This document shows positions 35,188 to 58,142 of a stretch of DNA of 64,000 nt, in pieces. The notes under the pieces were generated by a model. That model did no database searches and was not told where the DNA came from. It saw only the letters and a list, made by a program, of their open reading frames with translations. Numbering within the stretch: the stretch's first letter is position 1; the number at the start of each line of letters is the position of its first letter. The stretch spans positions 6,215,001 through 6,279,000 of the forward strand of contig NZ_CP071839.1 in the NCBI RefSeq assembly GCF_017526105.1, given 5' to 3'. A program made the translations under genes and the position numbers. This DNA is from Streptomyces cyanogenus. Lineage in GTDB: Bacteria; Actinomycetota; Actinomycetes; Streptomycetales; Streptomycetaceae.

Positions 35188-36174
35188 GTGGACATCGACA
35201 TGAGCGCCCTGCGGGGCTTGGTTCGGGAGAAGGAGATCTCCTTCGACCTCCTGGTCGAGGCGATCGAGTCGGCCCTCCTCATCGCCTACCACCGCACCGA
35301 GGGAAGCCGCCGACACGCGCGCGTGGAGCTCAACCGGGAGACCGGGCATGTGACCGTGTGGGCGAAGGAGGACCCCGAGGACCTCGCGGAGGGACAGGAG
35401 CCCCGCGAGTTCGACGACACCCCGTCCGGCTTCGGCCGCATCGCCGCGACCACCGCCAAGCAGGTGATCCTGCAGCGGCTGCGCGACGCCGAGGACGACG
35501 CGACGCTCGGCGAGTACGCCGGCCGCGAGGGCGACATCGTCACCGGCGTGGTCCAGCAGGGCCGCGACCCGAAGAACGTACTGGTCGACATCGGCAAGCT
35601 GGAGGCCATCCTGCCGGTGCAGGAGCAGGTGCCCGGCGAGACCTACCAGCACGGCATGCGCCTCAGGTCGTACGTCGTCCGGGTGGCCAAGGGCGTGCGC
35701 GGTCCGTCGGTGACCCTCTCCCGGACCCACCCCAATCTGGTGAAGAAGCTCTTCGCCCTGGAGGTGCCGGAGATCGCCGACGGCTCGGTGGAGATCGCCG
35801 CGATCGCCCGTGAGGCCGGTCACCGCACCAAGATCGCCGTACGGTCCACCCGGCCGGGCCTGAACGCCAAGGGTGCCTGCATCGGTCCCATGGGCGGCCG
35901 GGTCCGCAACGTGATGGGCGAGCTGAACGGCGAGAAGATCGACATCGTCGACTGGTCGGACGACCCGGCCGAGATGGTCGCGAACGCCCTGTCACCCGCT
36001 CGGGTGAGCAAGGTGGAGGTCGTGGACATGGCCGCCCGCTCCGCACGGGTGACCGTGCCGGACTACCAGCTGTCGCTGGCGATCGGCAAGGAGGGCCAGA
36101 ACGCCCGCCTCGCCGCCCGCCTCACCGGCTGGCGGATCGACATCCGGCCCGACACCGAGCAGGCCGGGGAGTAG
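35188..36174 (+). CDS. nusA: Transcription termination/antitermination factor NusA
   Basis: A 328-residue protein. Order: N-terminal RNA-polymerase-binding domain, S1 domain (~130-200, [29 protein letters not shown]), KH1 and KH2 (KVRG-like [84 protein letters not shown]). It lacks the C-terminal acidic repeats of the E. coli protein, which is normal in actinobacteria. GTG 35188 lies 2 bp after rimP. Confidence 0.95.
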
Positions 36175-36284
36175 GTCCGGGGGCCGGGGAATAGATCCAG
36201 GCCGTCCATCGCTGAGATCACGACAACAGCCGTTCGATTCTTGCCCCGAAGGGGTGAGGTCGGTACGGGGAGGTAGACTTAACT

Positions 36285-36581
36285 GTGTCTGGCCGGACGC
36301 ACACCCGAGCATGCCCTGAACGCACCTGTGTGGGGTGCCGGGAGCGGGCGGCCAAGAACGATCTCCTGCGGATCGTGAAGATCGAGGATGCGTGCGTCCC
36401 CGATCCTCGCGGTACGCTGCCCGGCCGGGGTGCGTATGTACACCCCGCCCTGGTCTGTCTCGACCAGGCGGTACGCCGCCGGGCGTTCCCGCGGGCACTG
36501 CGCGTCCCGGGACCGCTCGACACAAAGGCGTTGCGTCGATACGTCGAGCAGACAACAGTTGCCGAGCAGGCAACGCCGTAA
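36285..36581 (+). CDS. YlxR family RNA-binding protein (DUF448)
   Basis: A 98-residue protein with the family start RTCVGCRERAAKNDLLRIV, and GRGAYVHPALVCLDQAVRRRAFPRALR. GTG 36285 follows GGGGAGG. YlxR proteins are small nucleic-acid-binding proteins in the nusA-infB operon; in some bacteria they modulate RNase P or transcription. Cys15 and Cys18 of the CVGC motif are present. Confidence 0.92.
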   Translation: MSGRTHTRACPERTCVGCRERAAKNDLLRIVKIEDACVPDPRGTLPGRGAYVHPALVCLDQAVRRRAFPRALRVPGPLDTKALRRYVEQTTVAEQATP

Positions 36582-36726
36582 GACGAGCCGTACGGAACCC
36601 CGTGCGGCCTGGTACCTCGCGAGTCGAAAGCAGGTCGAGATTGCGATGAGCACTCGATGAGTACGCGATGAGTACGCCCATGAACTAGCGACGGTCCGGC
36701 TTCAACCCGGACCTCAAAGGAGCGAA

Positions 36727-39798
<3,072 letters not shown>

Positions 39799-39816
39799 CA
39801 CGACCGACGGTGTCCA

Positions 39817-39854
39817 GGGCTGGCCGGTGGCACGCAGGTGCCGCCGGCCAGCCC
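39817..39854 (+). terminator. Terminator hairpin after infB
   Basis: A continuous 17-bp stem with one T-G wobble (39817-39833 with 39838-39854) and a GCAG tetraloop, 18 bp after the stop. It would separate infB from the DUF503-rbfA-truB group or attenuate it. Confidence 0.8.
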
Positions 39855-39997
39855 GGCCGTTCCCTGGCGGCGGTCGCCGCCCGCGGTGCCGAAACCCTGT
39901 CGAGCCACCGGCAGGTACGCGGTACCGTTCTTGATGTCCCCGGCCACACGGACCCGGGGCCATCGATCCCGTACCGGCGGGTGAACCGGTTACACAC

Positions 39998-40291
39998 ATG
40001 TACGTGGGGACTCTGTCCTTCGACCTCCTCCTCGGCGACGTCCACTCGCTGAAGGAGAAGCGTTCCGTCGTCCGCCCGATCGTCGCCGAACTCCAGCGGA
40101 AGTACGCCGTGAGCGCGGCCGAGGTGGACCACGCGGACCTCCACCGGCGGGCGATCATCGGCCTCGCCGCGGTCTCCGGCGACGCGGCACACCTCACCGA
40201 CGTACTGGACCGGTGCGAACGGCTGGTCGCCGGCCGCCCCGAGGTGGAGCTGCTGTCCGTGCGGCGGCGCTTCCACGGCGACGACGACTGA
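39998..40291 (+). CDS. DUF503 (YlxP-like) protein
   Basis: A 97-residue protein with the family pattern MYVGTLSFDLLLGDVHSLKEKRSVVRPIVAELQRKYAVSAAEVDHADLHRRAIIGLAAVSGD. DUF503/YlxP proteins sit between infB and rbfA in many Gram-positive genomes and are thought to assist ribosome function. No ribosome site is obvious. 40 bp separates it from rbfA. Confidence 0.92.
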   Translation: MYVGTLSFDLLLGDVHSLKEKRSVVRPIVAELQRKYAVSAAEVDHADLHRRAIIGLAAVSGDAAHLTDVLDRCERLVAGRPEVELLSVRRRFHGDDD

Positions 40292-40331
40292 CCACGAAAC
40301 GCAAGCAAGAGAAAGAACGGGAGACGGACCA

Positions 40332-40790
40332 GTGGCCGACAACGCGCGGGCTAAAAGGCTGGCGGACCTCATCCGGGAGGTGGTGGCCCAGAAGCTGCAG
40401 CGCGGGATCAAGGACCCGCGGCTCGGCTCACACGTCACCATCACGGACACCCGGGTCACGGGTGACCTGCGGGAGGCGACCGTCTTCTACACGGTCTACG
40501 GCGACGAGGAGGAGCGGCAGGCCGCCGCCGCGGGCCTGGAGAGCGCCAAGGGCATCCTGCGCTCCGAGGTGGGCCGCGCGGCCGGGGTGAAGTTCACCCC
40601 GACCCTGACCTTCGTCGCGGACGCCCTGCCGGACACCGCCCGGACCATCGAGGACCTCCTCGACAAGGCCCGGCAGTCCGACCAGAAGGTACGCGAGGCC
40701 GCCACCGGCGCCACGTACGCAGGCGGCGCCGACCCGTACCGCAAGCCGGCGGACGACGACACCGACACGGACGGCGACGCCACCGCATGA
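40332..40790 (+). CDS. rbfA: Ribosome-binding factor A
   Basis: A 152-residue KH-fold protein for 16S rRNA 5'-end maturation and cold adaptation. Visible are ADLIREVVAQKLQRGIKDPRLGSHVTITDTRVTGDLREATVFYTV and GRAAGVKFTPTLTFVADALPDTARTIEDLLDKA. The C-terminus has an extra acidic tail (DDDTDTDGDATA). GTG 40332; the stop overlaps the truB start by four bases (ATGA). Confidence 0.95.
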   Translation: MADNARAKRLADLIREVVAQKLQRGIKDPRLGSHVTITDTRVTGDLREATVFYTVYGDEEERQAAAAGLESAKGILRSEVGRAAGVKFTPTLTFVADALPDTARTIEDLLDKARQSDQKVREAATGATYAGGADPYRKPADDDTDTDGDATA

Positions 40791-41692
40791 CCCAGAAGCA
40801 CACCACGCCCGACGGCCTCGTCATCGTCGACAAGCCGTCGGGCTTCACTTCGCACGACGTGGTCGCCAAGATGCGCGGGATCGCGAGGACCCGCCGCGTC
40901 GGCCACGCCGGCACCCTCGATCCGATGGCGACCGGCGTCCTGGTCCTCGGGGTCGAACGCGCCACCAAGCTCCTCGGGCACCTCGCGCTCACCGAGAAGG
41001 AGTACCTGGGCACCGTCCGCCTGGGCCAGAACACCCTCACCGACGACGCCGAGGGCGAGATCACCTCGTCCACCGACGCCTCCAAGGTGACCCGGGACGC
41101 CATCGACGCCGGCATCGCCAAGCTCACCGGCGACATCATGCAGGTCCCGTCCAAGGTCAGCGCCATCAAGATCGACGGCGTGCGGTCGTACAAGCGGGCC
41201 CGCGAGGGCGAGGACTTCGAGATCCCGGCCCGCCCGGTGACCATCTCCTCCTTCGCGGTGTACGACGTCCGGGACGCGGTCGCCGAGGACGGCACGCCCG
41301 TGCTCGACCTGGTCGTGTCCGTGGTCTGCTCCTCCGGCACCTACATCCGCGCCCTCGCCCGCGACCTGGGCGCCGACCTCGGCGTCGGCGGCCACCTCAC
41401 CGCGCTGCGCCGGACGCGCGTCGGGCCGTACAAGCTGGACGCGGCCAGGACGCTCGACCAGCTCCAGCAGGAGCTGACCGTGATGCCGATCTCCGAGGCC
41501 GCCGCGGCCGCGTTCCCGCGCTGGGAGGTCGACGGCAAGCGGTCCCGGCTGCTGCTGAACGGCGTCCGGCTGGAGATCCCCGACGAGTACGCGGGCGCCG
41601 GTCCCGTGGCCGTCTTCGACCCCGAGGGCCGTTTCCTCGCGCTCGTCGAGGAGCACCGGGGCAAGGCCAAGAGCCTGGCCGTCTTCGGCTGA
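40787..41692 (+). CDS. truB: tRNA pseudouridine(55) synthase
   Basis: A 301-residue pseudouridine synthase modifying U55 in the T-loop of tRNAs. The catalytic motif GHAGTLDPMATGVLVLGVERATKLL includes the catalytic Asp near residue 45. VPSKVSAIKIDGVRSYKRAREGE and VVCSSGTYIRALARDLGADLGVGGHLTALRRTRVG are typical. The start overlaps rbfA; a long hairpin follows. Confidence 0.96.
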   Translation: MTQKHTTPDGLVIVDKPSGFTSHDVVAKMRGIARTRRVGHAGTLDPMATGVLVLGVERATKLLGHLALTEKEYLGTVRLGQNTLTDDAEGEITSSTDASKVTRDAIDAGIAKLTGDIMQVPSKVSAIKIDGVRSYKRAREGEDFEIPARPVTISSFAVYDVRDAVAEDGTPVLDLVVSVVCSSGTYIRALARDLGADLGVGGHLTALRRTRVGPYKLDAARTLDQLQQELTVMPISEAAAAAFPRWEVDGKRSRLLLNGVRLEIPDEYAGAGPVAVFDPEGRFLALVEEHRGKAKSLAVFG

Positions 41693-41723
41693 GCCCCGGC
41701 CGGGCCCTGCCCGGGCCGCCCTG

Positions 41724-41774
41724 CCGTGGAGCGGCGGCCGGCCACGGGGTCGGGCCCCTGCCGCCGCTCCACGG
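41724..41774 (+). terminator. Terminator hairpin after truB
   Basis: Perfect 14-bp arms (41724-41737 with 41761-41774) around a 23-base loop, 31 bp downstream of the truB stop. Confidence 0.75.
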
Positions 41775-41962
41775 TCCCCCCTCGGTTCCCCCACCCCTAG
41801 GGTTATCCAGCCGCCCCCGCCTATTCACCCGACCGGGCAGGCGCTCGGAGTGAACCGGGGGAGCGGAAGGGGGCGCGTTCACCGCGCGATCTTTCCCGCC
41901 GATCACCGTGCGCCTACCGTCGAGGACAGGGCACGGGGACAGCGGGCGGGGAGGTACGGCAC

Positions 41963-44900
41963 ATGGCGGGACGGGGCCCGCGCACCGGAGGCGGGCGCCG
42001 GGAGCAGGAACGGGCGTGCGGGGAGCAGCCGTCCGGGCAGTGCACGCACGGGTACGGGGACGGTGCGGCCGGCGGGCCGCGCGGGGACGGCGGAGCCCGC
42101 GCCGGCGGTGCCGCCACCGATGCCGACGCCGCCCTCGTGCGGATCCGGGACCTGTCCGGGCGCCCGCGCGGGTACGGCTTCCTCGTCGACCACCAGGGCA
42201 CCCTGCTCACCAGCCACGAGGCCGTCGACGGCCTGCCCCGGCTGGTGCTGCACGCCCCCGGGGACCGTACCTGCGTGGTCACCGCCGACGCGGTCACCCC
42301 GCTGCCCGCCCTGGACCTCGCCCTGGTGCGCACCGAGGGTCTCGGCGGGGACCCGCTGCCGCTGACCGTGCGGGAGCGGATCGACGCCGGCACCTATGTC
42401 CAGGTCGCCGCCGGCTGCTGGCGGGAGGCGCGGGTGCTGGCCGCCTCCGAGGCGACGTACACCGCCACCGACGGTTTCCACCTGCTGGACGACGTGCTGG
42501 AGCTGGCCATCGGCACGGCCGGCCGGGACGCGCTCCGGCTCGGCGGCGGAGCGGCCGGAGGACCGGTCCTGGACGCCCGTAGCGGCGCTGTCGTCGGCGT
42601 CCTCGGCACCGCCCTGCACACCGCCCAGCGCGACGCGGGCTTCGCGGTGCCGCTGCGGCCCGCCGGCGGTGCCCTCGCCGACGTCCTCGCCCGCAACGCG
42701 GCCACGGTGCCCGCCTACGGCGCCGACCTCAACCTCGCCGGCATCCTCCAGCTGACCATCACCTCGGTGGTCCAGGACGGATCCCCGGACGCCCTCACCG
42801 GCCACCCGTGCGCCGTGGAACCGCTCGAACGCGACGACGTCGCCCGGGAGTTGGCCGCCTTCACCGCCGGCGACCGGTCCGTGCTCGGGCTGGTCGGCGC
42901 CCCCGGCAGCGGCCGTACGACGGAACTCGCGGCGCTCGCCGCCCGCCGCGCCCGGGGCGAGCGGCCCGCCCCCACGCTGTGGCTGCGCGGCGCCGACCTG
43001 AAGGACACCGACGGCTCGGTGGCCGACGCCGCCCGGCGCACCCTCGCACGTGCCGCCCGGATCGTCGCCGCCTCCCGCCGTGTGCAGCCCGAGGACCTCG
43101 GCGACGTCGGTCCCGAACACCTGGCCCGCCGCGCCGCCCGGGCCGGCCGCCCGCTCCTGCTCCTGCTCGACGGTCCCGAGGAGATGCCCCCCGTCCTCGC
43201 CCACCACCTGCCCGCGTGGACCCGGGGCACGGCCGACTGGCTGCGCGAGACCGGGGCGCGTCTGGTGGTGGCCTGCCGCGAGGAGCACTGGGAACACGCC
43301 GGCAACGCGTTCGCCGCGCACCTCCTCCACACCCCCGGCACCCCGGCGACCGGCACCCCCGCCCCGACCGCCCCCGAACATCCGGCCCCCACCCCACCCG
43401 GTCCCGCGGCCCCGCCGGAAGCCACCGGTCCGGCCCACCCACCGACGGACGCCCGTCCTTCACGGACCGACGCCGAGCCGCTGCGGACGTGGAGTGGCCC
43501 CGGGAGCCCGGCCGAGGACGCCGGGAGCCTGGCGGCCGGGTTCGGGGGCTCCGACGGCGGCGCCGGGTCGACTCGGGGGGCGGGGGGACCCGGGAAGGCG
43601 GACGGTGGTGCGCCGGTGTCGGCGTCGTCGGCCGGGCGGGTGAACCCGCGCTTCGAGGCGGCGCCCCAGACCCCCGCCGACCCGCTTCCCTCCTGCGTGC
43701 GGATCGGTGACTTCACCGTCGCCGAGGGGCGGCGGGCGCGGGCTCGGTACGGGATTCCGGACCGGGTGCTCGCCGAACGGGACGAGCGGCATCCGCTGGC
43801 GCTGCGGCTGCTGGCCGAGGTCCGGGCGGCCGTCCCCGACACCCCGGTGGCCGGGCCCGTCGACCGGGACGAGGTGTTCGCGGCCTGGCTGGACCTGATG
43901 TGCCTGCGCGTCGCGGTCCGCCTCGCCGCGGCCGGCGGCCTGCGCGGTACGGCCGTACGACGGCTGGCGGCACGGGTGGCCGGGCAGGTGCACGAGGCCG
44001 CCCGGCGCAGCCTCGGCCCCGGTCAGGGCGAGCTGGACCGGGAGTCGTTCGAGGCCGTGTTCCCGTGGGGACCCGCCCCGGCCCAGCTCGGCGGCGGTAC
44101 CGGCTGGGCCTCCGCCGTCCTCGCCGAGGGCCTCCTCGTGCCGGCCGGCGGCGGCTACCGCTTCGCCCACGAGGAGCTGGCCGACTGGATCCAGGGCATG
44201 CACCTGGACCTGGACGAGGCCCTGCGGGCCCTGGTGCACCACCCCGCCGAGCCGCACGACTTCCACGGCTCCCTGCCGGTGCCCCACCACCGCGTCGGCC
44301 CCGTCGTCCAGGCCCTGCTGCTCCTCGCCCGCCAGCGGGGCCCGCGGCAACTGGCCGATCGGCTGCGGGAGTTGATCGGCGCGCTCGACCGCGACACCGG
44401 CTCCTGGTGGGCCGCCCGGCTGCTCGCCCGGACCCTGCAGCAGGTCCCGGACACCACGCCGTACACGGAGGTGCTGCGCCTGCTCGCCGACCGCGTCGTC
44501 GCCTGGCGCCGCGCCCGGCGGCCCGTACCGGCCGACTTCCGCCCCGCCTTCTGGACCGCCCTGCCCGTCCCCGACGCCGAGCGCCTGGACCTGCTGCGCC
44601 GGCTGCTGCCGGCCGACCCGGCACCGCCCGCGACCGGGGACCGCTACCTGGACGCCGCGGCCGGACTGCTCGCCGCCGCACCCGCCGTCGTACAGCCCCT
44701 GCTCACCCGCTGGTTCACCGACGAGCGCCCGCTGCCCGCGACCCCGCACGCCACCGTGGCCACCGCCGCGCAGGCGATGCTGCACACGCACCGGCACGGC
44801 GCCCTGGACGATCTGGCCGAGGTGCTGGCCGCCTGCGCGCACCGGCGCGCCGACGAGCTGCTCGCCGTCCTCGCCGAGGACGAGCCGTCGGCCGTCTGCC

Positions 44901-45856
44901 GGGCGGTCGACCGCTGGGCGCACGACGAGCGACCCGCCCGCCGCGTGGCGGCGGTGACGCACGGGCTGCGCGCGGCCCCGCACGTCCGCTCGGAGGCGGA
45001 CCGCGAGCTGTTGCGCCACGCCGCCCTCGCCCTGCTCGCCCGCCCCGCCGACTGCCCCCTGCACGGCGGCGCCCTGGCCCTGCTGGTCCGCGACCCGCAC
45101 ACCCGCGACCGGTATCTGCCCGCCGCGCTCGGCCACTTCGCCGACGGCGACCCGCAGTTCCCGCCGAGCGCCCTGGCCCCGGCCCTGACCACACACCCGG
45201 AACCGGTCCTGGAGGCCTTCGGTGCCCGCCTGAGCGCCCCGGACACCGGCGGCCCGCAGACCAGGGCGGTCCTGCGCGGCCTCGCCGAGGTCACCACCCC
45301 GGCCCTCGCCCCCCGCGTCGCCGCCCTCCTGCGCGAGGCGGTGCGGCTGCGCCCGGAGACCGCCGGGCACGTCGCCGGCCACCTCGACCGCCGCCTCGCA
45401 CAGGGCCCCACCGCCCGCCCGGTCCTGCTGCCCCTGGTCACCGGCCTGCTCGACGGCGGTCCGGAACAGCTCCGCGCGGCCCTCGCCACCGTCCTCGCCG
45501 CGCCCGGCACGCCCGCCTCCCACCCGCTCCGCCGTGAGCTGCTGGAGGTCCTGCTGGCACGGGAGCAGGACCCGGCCGTCCTGGACGCCGTCCTGCACGC
45601 GGCGGTCGAACCCGGGCGCTGCTGCGAGGACGAGGTCCGTGGCCTCGTCCACCGCACCGGCCTGCTCCTCGTCCGCACACCCGAGGGCGCCACCCGCTTC
45701 GACCGCGGCCTGGTCGAGCTGGGCCGGCACGTGCCCGGCTTCGCCGCCCGCATCGCCCGGTGGCTGGACGGCTCCCCGGACGACTGGGCCGCCCTGGTCG
45801 GCCCCGGCACCCGCCGCATGATCGAGAACCTGGCCGGCGCCCACGTACCGGCCTGA
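41963..45856 (+). CDS. Trypsin-like pseudo-protease / P-loop NTPase / helical-repeat protein
   Basis: A 1297-residue multidomain protein; ATG 41963 has GGGGAGG at 8 bases. Residues ~50-245 are a trypsin-like fold: the His in LLTSHEAVDG (85) and the Asp in LPALDLALV (118) are present, but the serine motif reads GGGAAGGPVLD, so the nucleophile is Ala198. Residues ~285-450 are a STAND-like NTPase: P-loop GAPGSGRTT (312-320), Walker B RPLLLLLDGPEEM (~400). A Pro/Gly/Thr-rich linker (~460-580) follows. The remaining ~700 residues are helical repeats of HEAT type (DAVLHAAVEPG, RVAALLREAV). It sits between truB and ribF, with its own spacing on both sides. Such architectures are associated with regulatory or conflict NTPases; the function is unknown. 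Confidence 0.8.
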   Translation: MAGRGPRTGGGRREQERACGEQPSGQCTHGYGDGAAGGPRGDGGARAGGAATDADAALVRIRDLSGRPRGYGFLVDHQGTLLTSHEAVDGLPRLVLHAPGDRTCVVTADAVTPLPALDLALVRTEGLGGDPLPLTVRERIDAGTYVQVAAGCWREARVLAASEATYTATDGFHLLDDVLELAIGTAGRDALRLGGGAAGGPVLDARSGAVVGVLGTALHTAQRDAGFAVPLRPAGGALADVLARNAATVPAYGADLNLAGILQLTITSVVQDGSPDALTGHPCAVEPLERDDVARELAAFTAGDRSVLGLVGAPGSGRTTELAALAARRARGERPAPTLWLRGADLKDTDGSVADAARRTLARAARIVAASRRVQPEDLGDVGPEHLARRAARAGRPLLLLLDGPEEMPPVLAHHLPAWTRGTADWLRETGARLVVACREEHWEHAGNAFAAHLLHTPGTPATGTPAPTAPEHPAPTPPGPAAPPEATGPAHPPTDARPSRTDAEPLRTWSGPGSPAEDAGSLAAGFGGSDGGAGSTRGAGGPGKADGGAPVSASSAGRVNPRFEAAPQTPADPLPSCVRIGDFTVAEGRRARARYGIPDRVLAERDERHPLALRLLAEVRAAVPDTPVAGPVDRDEVFAAWLDLMCLRVAVRLAAAGGLRGTAVRRLAARVAGQVHEAARRSLGPGQGELDRESFEAVFPWGPAPAQLGGGTGWASAVLAEGLLVPAGGGYRFAHEELADWIQGMHLDLDEALRALVHHPAEPHDFHGSLPVPHHRVGPVVQALLLLARQRGPRQLADRLRELIGALDRDTGSWWAARLLARTLQQVPDTTPYTEVLRLLADRVVAWRRARRPVPADFRPAFWTALPVPDAERLDLLRRLLPADPAPPATGDRYLDAAAGLLAAAPAVVQPLLTRWFTDERPLPATPHATVATAAQAMLHTHRHGALDDLAEVLAACAHRRADELLAVLAEDEPSAVCRAVDRWAHDERPARRVAAVTHGLRAAPHVRSEADRELLRHAALALLARPADCPLHGGALALLVRDPHTRDRYLPAALGHFADGDPQFPPSALAPALTTHPEPVLEAFGARLSAPDTGGPQTRAVLRGLAEVTTPALAPRVAALLREAVRLRPETAGHVAGHLDRRLAQGPTARPVLLPLVTGLLDGGPEQLRAALATVLAAPGTPASHPLRRELLEVLLAREQDPAVLDAVLHAAVEPGRCCEDEVRGLVHRTGLLLVRTPEGATRFDRGLVELGRHVPGFAARIARWLDGSPDDWAALVGPGTRRMIENLAGAHVPA

Positions 45857-45986
45857 GCTGCACCGGGAACGTGCGCCCCGTCACAGCCCCCATGCCGATG
45901 CCGGCCCCGGGCACCCGGCATGGCACCCTTAGACCTGCACAACGAGGTCAGGACAGACACGGACAAGGGTTCGAGGAGCGGTCACA

Positions 45987-46934
45987 GTGCAGCGCTGGCG
46001 TGGCTTGGAGGACATCCCCGAGGACTGGGGGCGCAGCGTCGTCACCATCGGTTCCTACGACGGCGTCCACCGCGGCCACCAGCTGATCATCAAGCACGCC
46101 GTCGACCGCGCCCGCGAACTGGGCGTCCCGGCCGTCGTGGTCACCTTCGACCCGCACCCCAGCGAGGTGGTCCGCCCCGGCAGCCACCCGCCGCTGCTCG
46201 CCCCGCACCACCGGCGTGCCGAGCTGATGGCGGAGCTGGGCGTCGACGCCGTCCTCATCCTCCCCTTCACCACCGAGTTCTCGAAGCTGTCGCCCGCCGA
46301 CTTCGTGGTGAAGGTCCTGGTGGACAAGCTGCACGCCAAGGCGGTCGTGGAGGGCCCGAACTTCCGCTTCGGCCACAAGGCGGCCGGGAACGTCGAGTTC
46401 CTCGTCGAGCAGGGCAAGGTGTACGACTTCGAGGTCGAGGTCGTCGACCTGTACGTCACCGGTGAGGCGGGCGGCGGCGAGCCGTTCTCCTCCACGCTGA
46501 CCCGCCGCCTGGTCGCCGAGGGCGATGTCGCGGGCGCCCGCGAGATCCTGGGCCGCCCGCACCGCGTGGAGGGCGTCGTCGTCCGCGGTGCCCAGCGCGG
46601 CCGCGAGCTGGGCTTCCCGACCGCCAACGTCGAGACGCTCCCGCACACCGCCATCCCCGCCGACGGCGTGTACGCCGGCTATCTGCACGCCCAGGGCGAG
46701 GCCATGCCGGCCGCCATCTCCGTCGGCACGAACCCGCAGTTCGACGGCACCGAGCGCACGGTGGAGGCGTACGCCATCGACCGCGTCGGACTCGACCTGT
46801 ACGGCCTGCACGTCGCCGTCGACTTCCTCGCGTACGTGCGCGGCCAGGCGAGGTTCGACACGCTGGAGGACCTGCTGGAGCAGATGGCCGCGGATGTGAA
46901 GCGGTGCCGGGAGATCGTGGCGGCGGACGAGTAG
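45987..46934 (+). CDS. ribF: Bifunctional riboflavin kinase / FAD synthetase
   Basis: A 315-residue enzyme that makes FMN and then FAD. GTG 45987 follows GAGGAG. The N-terminal nucleotidyltransferase domain has SVVTIGSYDGVHRGHQLIIKHAV, VVTFDPHPSEVVRP and VVEGPNFRFGHKAAGN. The C-terminal kinase domain begins near 185 with GRPHRVEGVVVRGAQRGRELGFPTANVE and ends IDRVGLDLYGLHVAVDFLAYVRGQARFDTLEDLLEQM. The usual truB-ribF pair is interrupted here by the 1297-residue gene. Confidence 0.96.
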   Translation: MQRWRGLEDIPEDWGRSVVTIGSYDGVHRGHQLIIKHAVDRARELGVPAVVVTFDPHPSEVVRPGSHPPLLAPHHRRAELMAELGVDAVLILPFTTEFSKLSPADFVVKVLVDKLHAKAVVEGPNFRFGHKAAGNVEFLVEQGKVYDFEVEVVDLYVTGEAGGGEPFSSTLTRRLVAEGDVAGAREILGRPHRVEGVVVRGAQRGRELGFPTANVETLPHTAIPADGVYAGYLHAQGEAMPAAISVGTNPQFDGTERTVEAYAIDRVGLDLYGLHVAVDFLAYVRGQARFDTLEDLLEQMAADVKRCREIVAADE

Positions 46935-46957
46935 CCCTCGCCGAGGCGCGAAGCGCG

Positions 46958-46992
46958 AAGGGCGGCCGGTGCGGTGAGCACCGGCCGCCCTT
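46958..46992. terminator. Bidirectional terminator between ribF and the EspI-like gene
   Basis: A 15-bp stem, AAGGGCGGCCGGTGC (46958-46972) with its complement (46978-46992), and a GGTGA loop, then CTCCGTTT. It is flanked by convergent stop codons (46934 and 47011) and has T-rich ends on both sides. Confidence 0.85.
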
Positions 46993-47010
46993 CTCCGTTT
47001 GTCCGCGGCC

Positions 47011-50000
47011 CTACTGCTGGGGCGGGGGCTGCTGGCCCGGCTGCGGCTGCGGCTGCGCTTGGGGCTGCGGCTGGGGCTGTCCGGGCTGCGGGTAGCCCGG
47101 CTGCTGCGCCCCCGGATAGGGCTGCTGCGGCGGGTACGGCTGCTGCCCCGGGACGTATGGCTGGCCGGGGGCCTGCGCGTACGGCTGCCCCGGCGCCTGC
47201 GGGTAGGGCTGACCGGGGGCCTGCGGGGTCGGCTGGCCGGGCGCCTGCGGATACGGCTGGGCGGGGGCCTGCGGGTAGGGCTGACCGGTGCCGTAGGGCT
47301 GGCCCGGCGTCGCGTGGCCCGGCATCGGCGGGGCGGCCACCGGCGGCGGGTTGCCGTCACTCGTCCACAGGCCGTGGGCCTGCTGGTGGCGGGTGAAGTC
47401 CTCGGCGACCATCGCGGCGAGGTTGAAGTACGCCTCGCGCGTCTTCGGCCGCATCATGTCGAGGTCGACCTCGGCGCCGGCGGCCAGATGCTCGTCGAAG
47501 GGCACGACCACGACCCCGCGGGTCCGGGTCTCGAAGTGCGCCACGATGTCCTCGACCTTGATCATCTTTCCGGTCTCGCGGACCCCGGAGATCACGGTCA
47601 GGGACCGCGAGACCAGGTCGGCGTACCCGTGCGCGGACAGCCAGTCCAGCGTCGTACTGGCACTGCTCGCGCCGTCCACGGACGGCGTGGAGATGATGAT
47701 GAGCTGGTCGGCGAGGTCCAGCACCCCGCGCATGGCGCTGTACAGCAGGCCGGTGCCGGAGTCGGTCAGGATGACCGGGTACTGCCGGCCGAGCACGTCG
47801 ATCGCGCGCCGGTAGTCCTCGTCGTTGAACGTGGTCGAGACGGCCGGGTCCACGTCGTTGGCGATGATCTCCAGACCGGAGGGGGCCTGGGAGGTGAACC
47901 GCCGGATGTCCATGTACGAGTTCAGGTACGGGATGGCCTGGACGAGGTCACGGATGGTGGCCCCGGTCTCCCGGCGCACCCGCCGCCCGAGCGTACCGGC
48001 GTCCGGGTTGGCGTCGATGGCGAGGATCTTGTCCTGCCGCTCGGTGGCGAGGGTGGAGCCGAGCGCGGTGGTGGTCGTCGTCTTCCCGACACCGCCCTTG
48101 AGGCTGATGACCGCGATCCGGTAGCAGGACAGCACCGGCGTACGGATCAGCTCCAGCTTGCGCTGCCGCTCGGCCTCCTCCTTCTTGCCACCGAGCTTGA
48201 ACCGGCCGGCCGCCGCCGCGGGCCGCCCGCTCTTCGCCTTCTGCTTCTTGTTGTTGAGCAGCCGGTCCGAGGACAGCTCCACGGCAGCGGTGTAACCGAG
48301 CGGCGCGGCACCGGGGTTGGTCGGCTGCCGCTGATCGTGCTGCACGGCCTGCGGCCAGCCGGCACCGGAGCGGGGGTCGACGGGCGGCTGGGGAGCCAGC
48401 GGGGCACCCGGGGCGGCGGAGTCGGGTGCCGACTGCTGGGCCGAGGACTGGGGGAAGCCGTAGCCGCTGGACGGGTTGGGGGCCGGCTGCGGGGCCGAGG
48501 GCTGCGGGAAGCCGTAACCGCCAGGCTGTGCCGGGGGGTTGGGGCCGCCCGGCTGAGGGAAGCCGTAGCCGCTGGGCGGGGTGGGGGCGTTGGGGGCCGG
48601 CTGCGCGGCCGGGGGCTGCGGGAAGCCGTAACCGCCAGGCTGTGCCGGGGGGTTGGGGCCACCGGGCTGGTGGGGGTTATGGGCGGCCGGGTTGGGCTGG
48701 TTGGAGGCCTGGTCGGGCTGGTGCCACGCGGCGGGTGCGGGCTGCGGGGCCTGCGGCTGGAACGGGGGCTGCTGGCCGGGCACGCCGGCCGGACCCTGGG
48801 CGGCCGCCGGCTGCGGCTGCTCACCGGGCATCGGCCCCGGCTGCTGTGGGGCCGCCGCCTGCGGCTCGGGCTGTACGGGCCACTGGGCCGCGGGAACGGG
48901 TGCACCGGGCATCGGCGCCGGCTGCTGCGGGGCGGCCGCCTGCGGCTCGGGCTGTACGGGCCACTGGGCCGCGGGAGCCGGGGCAGCGGGCTGGTACGAC
49001 GGCGGCAGCGGGGGCAGCCCGTTCTGCGGCGCGGGCGGCGGTGCCCAGCCGGGCTGGGCGGCCTGGGGCGCCGGGGCAGCCGGGGAAGCGGGGGGCGTGG
49101 TGGGTGCGGCGGGCCCGGGCTGGGGCGCGCCGGCCTGCTGGACGCCGGGCGGCGGGAAGCCGTAGCCGCCGGGCTGTCCGGGAGCGGGCTGGGGTGCGCC
49201 GGCCTGCTGGGCTTCGGCTGGCGGGAAGCCGTATCCGCCGGGCTGTCCGGGGGCGGGCTGCTGGGCGGCGTTGGCGGAGGCGCTGTCGGCCGGGGCGCTG
49301 TCCTCGGGCGTGCCCGGCTGCGGCACACCGCTCTCGGCCACTGCGTCCGACGGCTGCGAAGCACCGGAGACCTGCGCGGAGTCGGCGGCTCCCTCGGGCG
49401 CATCCGAAGGCACGGCTGCCCCGGCAGCCCCCTCCGACGCACCGGAACGCACGGCGGCGGCGCCACCCTCCTGGGAGGTGCCCAGCTCGGCGCCGCCCTC
49501 CTCGGCCGCATCGGCCTCGGCGTGACCCTCCGTCGCACCGGACTCGGCGTCACCGTCGGCCGCACCGCTCTCGGTGTCGCCCTCCGCCGCACCGTTCCCG
49601 ATGTCGGCGGAGCCGGCGGCACCCGGCGTGGGGGATCCCTCGCCCTCCTGCTCGTCGCCATCCGGCCCGGAGCCGTCCGAGGCGGCGGCCGTCGCCACCG
49701 CGCCCTGCTGCCCGGCAGCCTCGCCACCGGGCTGCTCGACGCGCTCCTCGGCGCTCCCGGCATCGACGGACCGCACGGCACCGGACGCGTCCGACGCCCC
49801 GGCGGAGCCCTCCGCGACGGACGAGGCCCCCGGGAGGGTCCCCGCGCCCTCGTCGCCCGCCGTGGCCGTGCCCTCCGCGGAGCCGTCGCCCTCGGACCGG
49901 GCGGGGGCCGAGTCGGCCGCCGTGCGCTCGGCGATCTCGGCCATCTGGCGCTTCAGGGCGACGGCGGAGAACCGCATGGTCGCCCCGCTCTCCAGGTCCC

Positions 50001-50511
50001 CGTTGTCCGTCTCCGGCTCGACCACGGCAGGCGCGGCCGGCACGTCCCGCGGGGCAGGCTGGGGCTGCTGCGGCTCGAAGCCCTCGGGCAGCCGCGGCAT
50101 CGGAACGGGCTCACCGGCCGGCGGCGCGGGCTGGGCGACCGGGGGAGCGTACGAGGTCCCCTGCGGCGGAGTGAACGCCGCACCCTGCGCCGGACCGTAC
50201 GGAGTGCCCTGCGGCGGGGTGCCCGCCGGCGGGGTGGTCGGCGGTGGCGGCGTGGAACCCGAGGCAGAGGAGCCCGCGGGGAAGGGGAAAGGCATTCCCG
50301 GAGCGGCAGGAGCCCCCGAGTCGTCAGCGGCCCCGGAGAAACCGCCGGCACCGCCCGAGTCCCCGGCCGTACCGGACGCGTTCTGCGTGTACCAGGCCGG
50401 GGGAGCGTAGTCGATGGTGAACTCGCCGGTGGTCTCGACGGCCTCCGCGTCGGGCTGGTCATCGCCGGGTGTGTCCCAGCCCCCGCGCATCCCGTCCCGA
50501 TCGCTGCTCAC
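47011..50511 (-). CDS. EspI-like MinD/ParA-family ATPase of the ESX locus
   Basis: A 1166-residue protein. GTG 50511 has AGGAGGA at 6 bases. Residues 1-~760 are a disordered Ala/Pro/Gly/Gln/Ser-rich region with repeated GGYGFP(Q/P)P units. Residues ~790-1040 are a MinD/ParA ATPase: deviant Walker [14 protein letters not shown] (~803), [45 protein letters not shown] Pro/Gln tail with repeated YPQAPGQP follows. This design matches EspI of ESX-1 (Rv3876 type), a proline-rich ATPase that regulates ESX secretion. It is the last gene of the leftward group, 302 bp from the next, so it probably has its own promoter. A long antisense open frame is an artefact. Confidence 0.85.
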
Positions 50512-50812
50512 AGTTCCTCCTGGTGTGGTCGAGCACCCTCATGCCGTGCGGGGGCGACCATGTCGTGTCGTACCGAGTCGTCCGTAGTCGTTCGGGCGGT
50601 CCGATGCACCGGCCCTCCCCCAGGGACACCGACGCCCGGCTCACGGGTCCTGCCATCGCGCCCGCTCCCAGCCTAATCACCAAGAGCCACACCTCGGCAG
50701 GCCCGTCCGCCTCTCGGCGCCCGCCCACCAGGTCACCGCGGGCCCGGAGACACCCCACCCGTACCGCGCGGCCGCCACCACAGCGTGAACAAATAGGACG
50801 GGAAAGGGCAGT
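50512..50812. other. Upstream region of the EspI-like gene
   Basis: A 301-bp gap between two minus-strand genes. It carries AGGAGGA for the EspI-like gene and a TAGGCT hexamer on the minus strand near 50670 that could be a -10, but no convincing -35. No gene seen. Confidence 0.35.
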
Positions 50813-51562
50813 TCAGTCCATCCGTCGGGGCGTGCCCAACAATCCGATCTCGGCGTCGGTGGGTTGGGTCAGCACATACTGCCGGTCACGGTCGGTGCAC
50901 CACAGGGTGACACCGTCGGGCAGCGCCGGCAGCGACTCCACCTCGGTCCGCGACAGCCCCATCGTGCGCCCCAGTTCGGCCGCCTCGTCCGGCGAGACCC
51001 GCTGGATGCCGGCAAGCCGCGCCTGCCGCAGCAGCCGGGGCGCGACCGGGCTGAGATACGGCAGCAGGGTCAGCACCGACTGCCAGGGCCCGGACACCAC
51101 CCGCCCGCGCGGCGGCCGCATACCGCAGTCCCGCACCACCAGCACCGGCGTGCCCGCGGAGGCACCCTGCGGCGGCACCCGCCCCACGTCGTACACGGAC
51201 AGCCCGTTCTGCCCACCGCCCATGGCATGCACCATCTGCATCCAGGCCTGCGGCCGCCCGGTCTCCACGGCAACCCGGGCACCGGTGGCGGCGGAGCGCA
51301 GCGCCATGACCTGCGCGGTCCACAGGCCTCCGATGAGCACCATGTCGTACGCAGTGGGGCGGTTGACGCCGAGCACGGCGGGCTGGCCCTCACTGTTGAC
51401 GCCGACCACCACGCCGTCGTCGCCGATGGGCAGGGAAAGCGTGTCCGCCTGTTCCACGGGCAGCGCGTGCCTCGGATGACGGGGGCCCAGCAGGCCGAAG
51501 CCGGTGCGCAGCCGCTCACCGAGGCCCGGAGCCGACGGGGTGGGCGTTGTCGTCGTGGTCAT
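50813..51562 (-). CDS. Conserved ESX-locus protein of unknown function
   Basis: A 249-residue protein, ATG 51562 overlapping the eccE stop by one base (TGATG), so the two are co-translated. It starts with a Thr/Pro-rich tail, then an alpha/beta domain: ALPVEQADTLSLPIGDDGVVVGVNSEGQPAVLGVNRPTAYDMVLIGGLWTAQVMALRSAATGARVAVETGRP. It ends with a domain reading RQYVLTQPTDAEIGLLGTPRR. No membrane helix, signal or catalytic motif is recognisable. The position next to eccE in Streptomyces-type ESX loci suggests a cytosolic accessory role of the secretion machine. Confidence 0.8.
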   Translation of the reverse strand: MTTTTTPTPSAPGLGERLRTGFGLLGPRHPRHALPVEQADTLSLPIGDDGVVVGVNSEGQPAVLGVNRPTAYDMVLIGGLWTAQVMALRSAATGARVAVETGRPQAWMQMVHAMGGGQNGLSVYDVGRVPPQGASAGTPVLVVRDCGMRPPRGRVVSGPWQSVLTLLPYLSPVAPRLLRQARLAGIQRVSPDEAAELGRTMGLSRTEVESLPALPDGVTLWCTDRDRQYVLTQPTDAEIGLLGTPRRMD

Positions 51563-52926
51563 CAGCGGGCACCTCCGAGCGGCAGGGTGGCCAGAACGCC
51601 GGGGAGTTGTTCCCGGTCCAGGCGCGCGAGCCCGGTCCGCGCCTGCTGCGCCGCACGCTCCAGATCCCGCCGCGCGTCGGTCAGTTCCTGCTTGCTACGG
51701 CCGGTGATCCGCACATGCCCGGTGATCGTCACGTCCTGCTGCGCACCCGTGGCCAGTGTCAGACTGAACGTCGTCGCCAGTGCGGGAACCGCGGTCAGCT
51801 GGGCCACCAGCTGGGCCAGCGAGCCGCCGGATCCACCGAGCTGGGGCCAGCGGCGCACCCAGTAGGTGGTGTGCCGGCGGTTGTCACAGCGCCAGCTGCG
51901 GCTCGACTCCTCGGTCCGGCGCTGCGGCGCCTCGCCCCGCCCGGCCTGGGCCGTCACCATCGGGTTGGCGCACGCGGACGTGGCGATCGCGGCCGTCAGC
52001 TCCTCCTCGGTGAGCACGTTCGCCCGGAACCCGGCGCCGGTCAGTCGGCTCGACAGGTGTTCGGCGGAGCGTGTCAGGCACTTCTGCGCCCCCAGCAGCC
52101 CGCCGCCGCGCGCGGCCACCGCCTCCGGGCACAGCTCGGGATCGAGCTTCAGCGCGATCCAGGTGATGCGGACCGCGGGGGAGCCGGTCTGCGCCTGCAG
52201 CGGTGCGTAGTTGCTGACCACGACCGACTGCTGGGGCAGGTGCAGCGCGGGCGCCGGCTGGGTGTGCACCACGATCTGCGCCGACTCCAGCCGGATGCCG
52301 TCGACTTCGAGGACGTCCCGCACCAGGGCTACCGGCAGCGATCGCCGGCCGCTCTCCGCGCGCAGCGCGTCGACGTCCGACTCCACCTGGATCACGGCGG
52401 TCAGGAAGCCGCCGTCGCCCACCATGCCGATCGGCCGCTGGTCGCGGTCGTCGCCGCGGTTGTGGCTGAACGTGCGCAGGGTCGGGTCGCACTCCACGGC
52501 GGGCGCGAGACCGGAGTCGGTCCCCGGAGGCACCGGTGTGCTCGCGGCCCGCCGTATGCGCGCCCGCATGGCCAGCAGGGTGCCGAGCCATTCAGGCAGG
52601 GAACGCCCGCGGCGCCGTACGACGGCGAGCACCACGAGCACGACTGCGAAGGGGGCGGTGGCGATCAGCCCGGCCGTGCCGAGCAGCCACCCGCACAGCA
52701 CGAGCGCGCCTGCGATCTCCAGCAGCACCAGCCGCTGCACCGCGAACGAACCGCCGCGGCCCGAACGGGACTCCAGCCGCGGTGCGAAAGCGCCCTGATA
52801 GGGCCTGGGCAGCGCCTGCTCGGCGCCTCCCTCTCGGGAGGAAGGGCCGCGGGCACCCGACCGGCGCGCACCACCCGATCGTGCCCCCGATTGCGATCGC
52901 GACCGGGTCCGCGTTGCGGAAGCCAT
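51562..52926 (-). CDS. eccE: Type VII secretion membrane protein EccE
   Basis: A 454-residue protein. ATG 52926 (MASATRTRSRSQ) is preferred; the open frame extends to 53142 but overlaps the divergent eccB start. A basic Ser/Arg/Gly-rich N-terminus (~1-60) precedes two membrane helices at ~64-106 (VQRLVLLEIAGALVLCGWLL, LIATAPFAVVLVVLAVV). The remaining ~350 residues form the EccE cytosolic domain (IGMVGDGGFLTAVIQVESD, QIVVHTQPAPALHLPQQSVVVSNYAPL). EccE is a peripheral part of the ESX membrane complex with EccB, EccC and EccD. It is divergently transcribed from eccB across 206 bp. Confidence 0.88.
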   Translation of the reverse strand: MASATRTRSRSQSGARSGGARRSGARGPSSREGGAEQALPRPYQGAFAPRLESRSGRGGSFAVQRLVLLEIAGALVLCGWLLGTAGLIATAPFAVVLVVLAVVRRRGRSLPEWLGTLLAMRARIRRAASTPVPPGTDSGLAPAVECDPTLRTFSHNRGDDRDQRPIGMVGDGGFLTAVIQVESDVDALRAESGRRSLPVALVRDVLEVDGIRLESAQIVVHTQPAPALHLPQQSVVVSNYAPLQAQTGSPAVRITWIALKLDPELCPEAVAARGGGLLGAQKCLTRSAEHLSSRLTGAGFRANVLTEEELTAAIATSACANPMVTAQAGRGEAPQRRTEESSRSWRCDNRRHTTYWVRRWPQLGGSGGSLAQLVAQLTAVPALATTFSLTLATGAQQDVTITGHVRITGRSKQELTDARRDLERAAQQARTGLARLDREQLPGVLATLPLGGAR

Positions 52927-53132
52927 CACTTCAAAACCCCCGAACTCTCCCGAAAACCCTTGCGCTCCGGTCCCTTCAAGTCCTGAGCACCCTACCCGTG
53001 CCACCAGCACGTCCACGCAACAGGCATAGTAGGGGCCGGGTCTGACAGTCGAGGCACCAGAGGCAACCGAGGGCGGGGGACGGATCTTCACAGGTCCCCC
53101 ACGGCTCCGCAACGGGGAGAGAGCGGACACAG

Positions 53133-54656
53133 ATGGCATCACGGCGGGACGAACTCAACGCCTACACCTTCGCGAAGCGCCGCACGCTCGCGTCCTTCCT
53201 GCAGCCCTCCCCCTCCGGCTCGGAGGAGGGCGCCCCCAAGCCGTTGGGCGCACTGGTCCCCGGCCTCGTCGTCGGTGTCGTGATCCTCGCGGTGTTCGGT
53301 GCGATCGGCATGTTCAGCCCCACGGCACCCAAGGGCTGGGACACACCCGAGGAACACGTCATCGTCGCCAGCGAGTCGACCACCCGGTACGTCGTCCTGA
53401 AGACGGGCAAGCAGAAGCAGCTCCACCCGGTCCTCAACATGGCCTCGGCCAAGCTGCTCCTGGACCCCAGCAAGGCCAGCGTCATCACCGTGGACGAGAA
53501 GATCCTCGACAGCGGCAAGCCTCCGCACGGCGCCACCATCGGCATTCCGTACGCCCCCGACCGCCTGCCCTCCCCGGAGGAGGCCGAGGCTGTCAAACGC
53601 TGGGCGGTCTGCGAGCGGCCCGGCGACGGCGGCCGGACCATCCAGAAGGCGGCGTTCGTCCTCGCGAAGAAGGAATGGTCCAGGACGGACGGGTCCGACC
53701 AGCTCAGCCGCGGCGACCTGATGTACGTCGTAGGCCCTGACGGCAAGACCCAGTACGTCGTTGACGCGCGAGGCACCGCCTACCGGATCGCTGATCCGAG
53801 CGACAAGGAACTCCTCAAGGCCCTCGACACCCGCGGCCGCGCTCCGCAGCGCGTCTCCCAGCAGTGGCTCGCCACCCTGCACAAGGGAAGCCCGATCGCC
53901 ATCCCGAGGATCGACGGCGATCCCGGCGCCAAGGCCGGCGCCGGGATCATGCCGGCGCAGTACGACAAGGTCGGGGAGGTCATCAAGGCGTACGACGGCC
54001 AGGTGCTGCGCTACTACGTCGTCCTGCAGGGGAAGGTGGCCCGTGTCTCCGAGTTCACGGCCACGCTCCTGCTCAACAGCGGCCAGCTGGTCGGCGTGGG
54101 CCAGGCCGGCGAGGCCCAGCAGGTCAGTCCCGGCGCCGTCGCGGACAGCACGACCTTCGACGAGGACAAGAACTGGCCGACGTACAAGCCGAGGACGGTG
54201 AACGACGGCTCCAGCGCCACCAGCGGCCGCAACACGGTCTGCAACGTCCTGCGGTCGGTCGGCGGCAAGGGGAAGACCACCCTGTCCACCTGGGTCGGCA
54301 AGGACTTTCCCGCCCAGCTCCCCACCGGTTCCTCCAGCGCCTACGTCACCCCGGGCTCCGGCCAGCTCTACCGCCAGATCCAGGGTACGGAGACCAAGGC
54401 CGGCGGCGTCTTCCTGGTCACCGACACGGGCCTGCGCTACGCCCTGCAGTCCAACAGCGACAGCGCCACCGAGGACAAGGGCATCGGCACCTCTGCCAAG
54501 AAGCGCAAGCAGGAGCTGGCCGAGGCCAAGATCGCCCAGACCCGTCTCGGTTACGAGAAGTTGACGCCCACACCCATTCCCCTGGAGTGGTCGACCTTCC
54601 TGCCGACGGGCCCGCGCCTGTCGGAGGCGGCGGCGCGGCAGCCGCAGGGTTCGTAG
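53133..54656 (+). CDS. eccB: Type VII secretion protein EccB
   Basis: A 507-residue membrane-anchored protein. ATG 53133; the typical start ASRRDELNAYTFAKRRTLASFL is followed by one membrane helix (~41-62). The large extracytoplasmic domain shows the EccB repeat pattern with SRGDLMYVVGPDGKTQYVVDARGTAYRI, ALPR-type IPRIDGDPGAKAGAGIMPAQYDKVGEVI, and the conserved Cys pair (one near residue 162, one in NTVCNVLRS). It ends with TPTPIPLEWSTFLPTGPRLSEAAARQ. EccB forms the periplasmic-side part of the ESX complex. It is 24 bp ahead of the first mycosin. Confidence 0.93.
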   Translation: MASRRDELNAYTFAKRRTLASFLQPSPSGSEEGAPKPLGALVPGLVVGVVILAVFGAIGMFSPTAPKGWDTPEEHVIVASESTTRYVVLKTGKQKQLHPVLNMASAKLLLDPSKASVITVDEKILDSGKPPHGATIGIPYAPDRLPSPEEAEAVKRWAVCERPGDGGRTIQKAAFVLAKKEWSRTDGSDQLSRGDLMYVVGPDGKTQYVVDARGTAYRIADPSDKELLKALDTRGRAPQRVSQQWLATLHKGSPIAIPRIDGDPGAKAGAGIMPAQYDKVGEVIKAYDGQVLRYYVVLQGKVARVSEFTATLLLNSGQLVGVGQAGEAQQVSPGAVADSTTFDEDKNWPTYKPRTVNDGSSATSGRNTVCNVLRSVGGKGKTTLSTWVGKDFPAQLPTGSSSAYVTPGSGQLYRQIQGTETKAGGVFLVTDTGLRYALQSNSDSATEDKGIGTSAKKRKQELAEAKIAQTRLGYEKLTPTPIPLEWSTFLPTGPRLSEAAARQPQGS

Positions 54657-54680
54657 CGGTCGGCGGAGGAGAACGAACTC

Positions 54681-55958: not shown

Positions 55959-56375
55959 CCCTGGGGTCCCGCCCCCGGGATCCGCAGACACGCAAAGGCG
56001 GCGGTGCCGTCGAGGTACCGCCGCCGTGCGCCCCACCGACCTCGCGCGCCTGGCCGACGTCGTCGGCGAGGAGCCAGGCGGCCTCGACGCTGCGCCCACG
56101 CCACGGACCGGCACAGACAGCGTCGGCTTCGACTTCTCCACGGTGACCGAGCCTGAGCAGCCGATGAGCAGCACACCGGCGGCAACTGCCGAAAGCCCCC
56201 AAGCTGTTGCGGACAGGCGGGCTGGCCGAACCGCAACCGGAACCTGGCCGTGTGGGTCGCAAGCGCCGACTGCGCCGGGCTGAGCACCGGTTCGTGCCTG
56301 CCGGTCTCGGGCCGCAGTGGCGTTCGAGTTGACCCCGTAAACCTCCCTGCTCCGCCACTCGGGCCGCTCGTGCAT
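55944..56375 (-). pseudogene. Possible decayed lipoprotein gene
   Basis: On the minus strand a frame ending at 55944 contains SATAWGLSAVAAGVLLIGCSGSVTVEKSKPT, which is an excellent lipoprotein signal with lipobox LIGC. No usable start codon lies just before it; the nearest ATG (56375) would add ~70 residues of non-coding character. After the signal the frame loses coding look (Arg/Pro/Ser-rich). It may be the remnant of a lipoprotein gene broken by frameshift or deletion. Confidence 0.3.
55997..56025 (+). terminator. Hairpin after mycosin 1
   Basis: GGCGGCGGTGCC (55997-56008) pairs with GGTACCGCCGCC (56014-56025) with one G-T wobble, 39 bp after the stop codon. It would end the eccB-mycP transcript. 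Confidence 0.65.
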
Positions 56376-56606
56376 GTCGCTCCGGGCGGCCCTTACACGG
56401 CGTGACGTGCTGGGACACCGCAGATCCGCGTCAATGCGTCGACCGGTGAGAACCGAAAGGTCTATTGCCTCGAAGATCATCTGAGCTCGTAACTCGGTCT
56501 GTTCGGATGGCGGTGCAGCGCCGCTGATCTATCAAGCGTGGAGGTTTGATGGAGAGCGCGGACGGGCGATGAGTCCTGGACCCCCGCCGTGGGCCGGTGG
56601 GTGACC
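56026..56606. other. Degenerate spacer region
   Basis: A ~580-bp stretch without a convincing gene apart from the lipoprotein-like remnant on the minus strand. The base composition is visibly less G/C-rich than in the neighbouring genes. It leads into the remnant of the duplicated cassette. Confidence 0.4.
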
Positions 56607-58138: not shown

Positions 58139-58142
58139 CGTC
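57953..58142 (+). repeat. Direct repeat, copy A: near-identical 3' end of mycosin 2
   Basis: Bases 57953-58142 match 61861-62050 at a fixed offset of 3908 with one difference seen (AGTCC versus AGCCC near 57981). Identity stops shortly before the tract and a few bases after the stop codon. The coding sequence upstream differs at many positions. Confidence 0.85.

Follow-up and report, generated by a model that had tools for sequence, protein, structure and literature searches.

A STAND-like protein with a degenerate HtrA-like domain and a lysine-less P-loop between truB and ribF in Streptomycetaceae

Between truB and ribF on the chromosome of Streptomyces cyanogenus lies a gene for a large multidomain protein, which we examined within a window of 64,000 nucleotides (nt) (assembly GCF_017526105.1, contig NZ_CP071839.1, positions 6,215,001 to 6,279,000). 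Positions below are those of the window, and features lie on the forward (+) strand unless stated otherwise. The gene runs from an ATG start at 41963 to 45856, is preceded by a ribosome-binding site (GGGGAGG, 41948-41954) and encodes 1297 amino acids (aa). Its neighbours, identified by library match and in a survey of flanks, are truB (40787-41692), 270 nt upstream, and ribF (45987-46934), 130 nt downstream. In order, the protein comprises residues 1-56, which have a disordered appearance, a pseudo-trypsin domain (57-250), a P-loop part (285-458), a linker (459-577) and a mostly helical part (578-1297). No membrane segment is apparent in it (the maximum hydropathy mean over 19 residues is 1.61), no Pfam, NCBIfam or PADLOC model spans its full length (PHROGs was not searched), and no paper on it was found among the titles listed by searches of an open-access library.

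A reading made earlier from the letters of the window and translations of their open reading frames (ORFs), here called the sequence-only reading, had drawn attention to this gene. The motifs and regions that it named are all there: His85, Asp118 and GGGAAGGP with Ala198 in the first domain, GAPGSGRTT (residues 312-320) and LLLLLDGPEE in the second, then a Pro/Ala/Gly-rich stretch and a long, mostly helical C-terminus. Relatives of the protein are encoded on 453 stretches of genome contigs; our set of relatives consists of the best 80 of these together with members of other genera added from 61 Streptomycetaceae genomes.

The first domain (42131-42712) folds as a trypsin of the HtrA type. Residues 70-213 score 40.6 bits with Pfam Trypsin_2, above its cut-off of 27.6 (E 5.3e-10), and an AlphaFold model of residues 57-458 was built from an alignment of 72 sequences (best mean predicted local distance difference test score, pLDDT, 77.9, with a predicted template modelling score, pTM, of 0.52; mean pLDDT of the other four models, 76.3 to 62.1). 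The trypsin part of this model matches HtrA/Deg structures, with a best Foldseek E of 2.8e-9 and a VIA-align Z of 17.8 to Deg1 (3qo6_C; root-mean-square deviation, rmsd, 3.0; 174 aligned), so the trypsin fold claimed for the supposedly dead protease is recovered in the structure model. Pfam finds no PDZ domain in the window protein up to E 1.

Across the family, the catalytic positions of this fold have fared differently. His occupies the position of His85 (42215-42217) in 112 of the 116 sequences with a residue there, and the position of Asp118 (42314-42316) holds Asp in 43, Gly in 57, Asn in 15 and Ala in one of 116. At the nucleophile position, Ala198 in the window protein (42554-42556), 118 sequences carry Ala in 92 cases, Ser in 19, Pro in three, Cys, Thr and Ile in one each, and a gap in one. 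Ala198 is not a private mutation: Ser in a GxSGGP context (GASGGP) occurs in just two of 118 homologues, both with Gly at the Asp position. His, Asp and Ser are found jointly in three closely related sequences (L106-L108), where the context is QASGTP rather than GxSGGP, and the complete canonical site, with all three residues and GxSGGP, is found in none of the 118. We conclude that, in the sequences compared, the degenerate protease site is a family trait. A cryptic protease, working with another nucleophile or a rearranged site, could be argued from the retention of His85, from the 19 sequences with Ser and the one with Cys at the nucleophile position, and from the three residues kept in L106-L108. 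Counter to this, Asp is lost in 73 of 116 sequences and in 16 of the 19 that bear Ser, and the GxSGGP context is missing from L106-L108; we consider a hidden cutting activity most improbable.

The second domain (residues 285-458; 42815-43336) is P-loop NTPase-like, as judged from weak NACHT and nSTAND_NTPase5 matches and from the strand-loop-helix order in the model. Its Walker A-like motif, GAPGSGRTT (42896-42922), follows a family pattern of G-x-x-G-x-G-R-[TS]-T. The GK[ST] signature is absent, with Arg318 replacing Lys in the window protein and Arg in all 117 sequences with a residue at that position, a replacement that the sequence-only reading overlooked. A Walker A motif normally has Lys here, and Arg in its place tends to impair hydrolysis. 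Elsewhere in the P-loop and in Walker B, the residues hardly vary. The Walker B-like motif LLLLDGPEE (43157-43183; alignment of 119 rows, with three gaps) has the pattern of four hydrophobic residues and Asp (hhhhD) followed by acidic residues, with Asp403 and Glu406 kept in 116 of 116 sequences and Glu407 in 115 of 116. Among 51 family members, Pfam models at E up to 0.1 match as NACHT in 41, AAA_16 in 40 and nSTAND_NTPase5 in 40; for the segment from the window the scores, with cut-offs in brackets, are 20.4 (26.7) bits for NACHT, 19.1 (34) for nSTAND_NTPase5 and 21.6 (32.6) for AAA_16. A profile of this part finds short P-loop matches in the PDB (FlhF, ABC proteins), the best at E 0.0012 to FlhF.

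A variable Pro/Ala/Gly-rich linker (residues 459-577; 43337-43693) leads into a winged-helix-like unit and a HEAT/ARM-like superhelix (residues 578-1297; 43694-45853), recognised with AlphaFold and VIA-align. The model of this C-terminal part has a mean pLDDT of 91.2 and a pTM of 0.74. Its residues 86-170 consist of helices and a beta hairpin, include the motif YRFAHEE and resemble a winged helix, and the helical repeats are clear. VIA-align matches the C-terminal part to PP2A-A and importins (Z up to 12.3) and its model residues 2-264 to NLRP9 (Z 11.7, rmsd 5.4, 228 aligned), values near 12 being in the range where helical proteins may match by arrangement alone. The likeness to NLRP9 and the NACHT NLRs is a partial C-terminal alignment, with HEAT/ARM-like repeats here instead of leucine-rich repeats. 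A profile search of the PDB with the C-terminal half gave nothing below E 0.48.

An effector domain, a P-loop switch, a winged-helix-like unit and repeats, in this order, constitute a layout of NLR/STAND type; the layout proposed from the sequence is borne out by domain order and folds. We label the protein STAND-like instead of a STAND member because, on its sequence, the Walker A lysine is missing and the Pfam scores fall below their cut-offs. Much the same features could belong to a plain scaffold, in which neither domain binds nucleotide or peptide and a large surface holds partners together. Such a scaffold would suit a degenerate protease site, a P-loop that lacks Lys throughout the family and a superhelix that resembles PP2A-A and importins, with the caveat on helical matches just given. 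Against it, so little variation at the remaining positions of the P-loop and of Walker B suggests that a site for nucleotide has been kept, and His85 is present in nearly all sequences. We find the plain scaffold doubtful.

The ratio of nonsynonymous to synonymous substitution rates (dN/dS) was computed over nine chosen close pairs. It spans 0.24-0.54 in the trypsin domain, 0.24-0.49 in the NTPase part and 0.30-0.50 in the C-terminus, with 0.22-0.97 in the linker. The values well below 1 show purifying selection on the folded parts, so that the dead domain is maintained. In the same pairs, the neighbouring genes give 0.04-0.14 (infB, C-terminal part), 0.11-0.32 (truB) and 0.06-0.18 (ribF), and the median end branch is 0.15 for the gene (38-row tree) against 0.041 for infB, truB and ribF (54-row tree). 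The protein thus evolves faster than its housekeeping neighbours. The putative sensor is no faster than the other domains, which argues mildly against an arms race.

The chromosomal site of the gene is constant. A survey of 121 loci looked for the gene together with infB, truB and ribF. Wherever both flanks were read, at 94 loci (the genome of the window included), the order is truB, the gene, ribF. At 26 of the 121 loci one flank or none was found, mostly on short stretches or at contig edges, and no alternative order was seen; a few relatives show wider gaps between truB and the gene. None of the four genes was found at the remaining locus, L120. This locus, from genome G020, was dropped as an orthologue at the site: its match (E 2e-5) is to the trypsin-NTPase segment and lies away from the site, and the truB-ribF gap of that genome is 121 nt. 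Its removal changes the count of gene-bearing genomes from 44 to 43 of the 61 Streptomycetaceae genomes, leaving 18 without the gene at the site, and the count of gene-bearing genera from 10 to 9 of 17. In the 16 of these 18 genomes in which it was read, the truB-ribF gap is 93-350 nt, too short for such a gene.

Patterns of presence and divergence follow the chromosome. On a tree of infB, truB and ribF (54 of 107 rows), the distribution of the gene needs at least four changes, compared with a mean of 13.9 after shuffling (0 of 500 shuffles as low), the tree being a quick search on which gain and loss are not distinguishable. Distances between N-terminal halves of the protein correlate with housekeeping distances in a Mantel comparison of 38 rows (Pearson r 0.90, Spearman 0.72; 0 of 999 permutations as high), with long branches and gappy rows in the gene tree behind them, and this correlation supports inheritance with the chromosome. 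The genome of the window has a single match at E up to 0.001 and no second copy. At E up to 1e-5, neither 72,556 records of plasmids nor 50,697 of phages gave a match, and viral contigs yielded no relative in a scan that began from peptide patterns and detects close relatives only. Outside the family, searches used profiles of the C-terminal half and not of the N-terminal half; with these, the gene was found in 7 of 118 genomes of a sample of the class, all of them Streptomyces and none from the other 71 genera, and in a sample of the phylum 5 of 149 genomes matched, four of them Streptomyces and the fifth a partial match of 17.9 bits over 57 model positions that we do not count. By site and descent, the gene behaves as a chromosomal resident.

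The region upstream suggests that this resident is expressed on its own. Downstream of truB, a perfect 15-bp inverted repeat (CCGTGGAGCGGCGGC / GCCGCCGCTCCACGG; 41724-41774) is a candidate truB terminator; it recurs with a few changes in close relatives and has no T-run, and the surrounding region (41715-41790) folds better than its shuffles (z -3.69). It is followed by TAGGGT (41798-41803), a candidate -10 element when judged against the HrdB consensus, which all 13 of the upstream regions that were aligned contain. Nearer to the gene, a conserved 31-nt element (41824-41854) contains the inverted repeat TTCACCC..GAGTGAA and is a candidate operator or leader. Allowing up to three mismatches, it is found once in the genome; the 21-mer GGAGTGAACCGGGGGAGCGGA is present at three mismatches or fewer in 75 of 94 upstream regions, and by eye a similar repeat core is kept in about 9 of 18 divergent loci compared. 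Also by eye, the element seems to vary less than the beginning of the coding region. Scans of 41600-42100 with sigma-70 promoter and terminator consensus patterns found nothing. A structured RNA leader was considered and rejected: Rfam has no match in 36000-48500 up to E 1, and neither of the two leader folds is notable (z -0.74 and -0.87). On the other side of the gene, the region upstream of ribF (45857-45986) has motifs of its own (GGCATGGCACCCTTAGACC and GAGGAGCGGTCACA), which are seen where the gene is present and, by eye and in similar form, in most of the 16 genomes that lack it.

Given the hairpin after truB, an upstream element of its own and separate motifs ahead of ribF, the gene looks like a separate transcription unit, a self-contained cassette between truB and ribF. 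This bears on the claim that the protein has a resident role within a translation and flavin housekeeping block. The position in the truB-ribF interval is right, and residence is upheld by the fixed site and by inheritance. A role shared with truB and ribF is not shown by position, because the gene appears to form its own transcription unit and 18 of the 61 genomes lack it.

Trypsin-STAND proteins have been described in defence systems, where the protease is functional. Avs1 (AVAST type 1), for instance, consists of trypsin-STAND proteins with a paired metallo-β-lactamase (MBL) nuclease. Compared with Avs1, the protein described here has a degenerate protease site, a replaced P-loop Lys and a fixed chromosomal site, and in the window the gaps of 270 and 130 nt on its two sides are too short to hold an MBL-fold nuclease gene (in relatives, no search aimed at nucleases was made). 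PADLOC returns just OloA at E 0.14 for the whole protein and no model at 0.01 for segments from the window. Fusions of trypsin and STAND domains with a similar layout are described in the available text of PMC12799240. The CARD-NLR and LypABC systems are alike in joining a trypsin-like domain to an ATPase-like domain and differ in that their repeats belong to a separate protein, LypB, whereas here all are in one chain; no CARD is matched in a Pfam scan of the window protein up to E 1. In the accessible parts of PMC13236601, the ATPase domain of LypA has no Walker residues yet appears to be needed, and its catalytic Ser is required (S262A fails).

Dead trypsin domains also have precedents. In VMAP conflict systems, nearly all trypsin domains that take the place of the vWA effector are reported to be inactive, and a role as peptide binders or dominant-negative regulators is put forward for such domains, in the excerpts available of PMC7159879. 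According to the same excerpts, the VMAP and iSTAND ternary systems share inactive STAND cores and dead trypsin domains, and iSTAND systems are almost absent from actinobacteria (PMC7159879). No MoxR or vWA partner gene was found among infB, truB, ribF and the ten downstream ORFs scanned.

These comparisons raise the possibility of an anti-phage sentinel like Avs1 or CARD-NLR, whose repeats would sense a phage product, whose NTPase-like part would oligomerise and whose dead protease would recruit or control a separate effector. The resemblance to trypsin-STAND fusions, the inactive trypsin domains typical of VMAP systems, evolution faster than that of the neighbours and weak hits to mad8, seen for 10 of the 51 NTPase segments (E up to 0.01), all favour such a sentinel. 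A link to MADS was itself dropped, as mad8 matched just 1 of 72 longer segments and no supporting literature was found. Against a sentinel stand the lack of space for an effector gene in the window, inheritance that tracks the chromosome with no mobile copies found, the near-empty PADLOC result and a putative sensor whose dN/dS is not above that of the other domains. On balance we regard defence against phage as unlikely, yet as a serious rival.

Two further kinds of protein are comparable. MalT and AfsR are resident chromosomal STAND-type switches with C-terminal repeats and serve ordinary regulation, and their existence means that a non-defence STAND protein is not new in itself. Both carry a DNA-binding output domain and the Walker A lysine, where ours has a dead HtrA-like domain and an Arg P-loop. 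MamO, a repurposed HtrA pseudoprotease and magnetite-biomineralisation factor that is not known to have an NTPase or repeats, is similar in its HtrA fold with a degenerate site (VIA-align Z 16.9 to 5hma_A). The available text of PMC4794232 assigns MamO a non-catalytic role and the activation of a partner protease, and that of PMC13236601 names MalT a STAND ATPase.

We lean, at a little short of even chances, towards a switch or scaffold of NLR-like (STAND-like) type that resides in the chromosome of Streptomycetaceae, was domesticated from a trypsin-NTPase-repeat protein and has a dead HtrA domain that binds rather than cuts. As the cutting residue and the usual P-loop lysine are both lost, the protein probably works by binding partners. 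The HEAT/ARM-like superhelix would bind a cellular protein, and the Arg P-loop may hold nucleotide with little or no turnover, making a slow or locked switch. The dead HtrA-like domain would be the output, binding a peptide or a partner, such as an active protease, without cutting it, and the upstream element would set the timing of production. A sensor role for the dead domain, as the sequence-only reading proposed, is one that we could at most infer; where antiviral STAND proteins have been characterised, the sensor mostly lies at the C-terminal end, as stated in the portion available of PMC10907252.

Several observations count against a switch or scaffold of this kind. Pfam STAND models hit the window protein below their cut-offs and none above, and no NLR or STAND protein is among the best 60 of 143 PDB profile matches of the NTPase part. 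The fold search with the 57-458 model did not reach the NTPase part, a lack of matches that is no evidence against an NTPase fold; the pTM of the first of these models is 0.52, and the mean pLDDT of the five spans 77.9-62.1. Segment 251-284 has a dN/dS of 0.34-2.78, on 27-34 codons. The reading frame is interrupted in L063 and at six of the 19 divergent loci (L104, L107, L109, L110, L117 and L119), and the gene is absent from 18 of the 61 family genomes and is therefore dispensable.

The last two points would also fit a decaying remnant or an annotation artefact. The breaks in L107 and L109 fall at runs of N, and those in L104, L110 and L117 in GC-rich low-complexity stretches. At the split loci sequencing error and real breakage are indistinguishable, and a programmed frameshift was dropped, since the five loci inspected break at sequence of these two kinds. 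Arguing against decay, dN/dS is well below 1 in the three folded parts, the match is split across two frames in just one of the first 80 loci, and the upstream element is conserved; a remnant or artefact seems to us very unlikely.

The domesticated switch or scaffold that we favour could be cast in a narrower form, as a lineage-wide 'double-dead' NLR, a protein akin to an immune receptor in which the dead protease and the lysine-less P-loop were fixed by selection and which was domesticated for signalling, with a private operator and a non-defence physiological or developmental job done by binding alone. We consider this form possible, if on the unlikely side. What would be new is a trypsin-NLR layout kept at one chromosomal site across a bacterial family with each of its two catalytic signatures already lost or changed. 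The locus also offers a clean genetic comparison, with the gene in 43 of 61 genomes and absent from 18, and with truB and ribF adjoining in the 16 of these that were read.

Farther downstream, EccE lies after ribF in all 14 genomes examined that lack the gene and in 18 of the 19 examined that carry it. A linkage of the gene to type VII secretion genes was dropped, this adjacency being independent of the gene. In the window, the type VII (ESX) secretion cluster extends after ribF from 47011 to 62896 and includes a ParA/MinD-like ORF of 1166 aa on the minus strand, EccE, EccB, three S8 subtilases and two WXG100-like proteins, one of which scores just under the Pfam cut-off.

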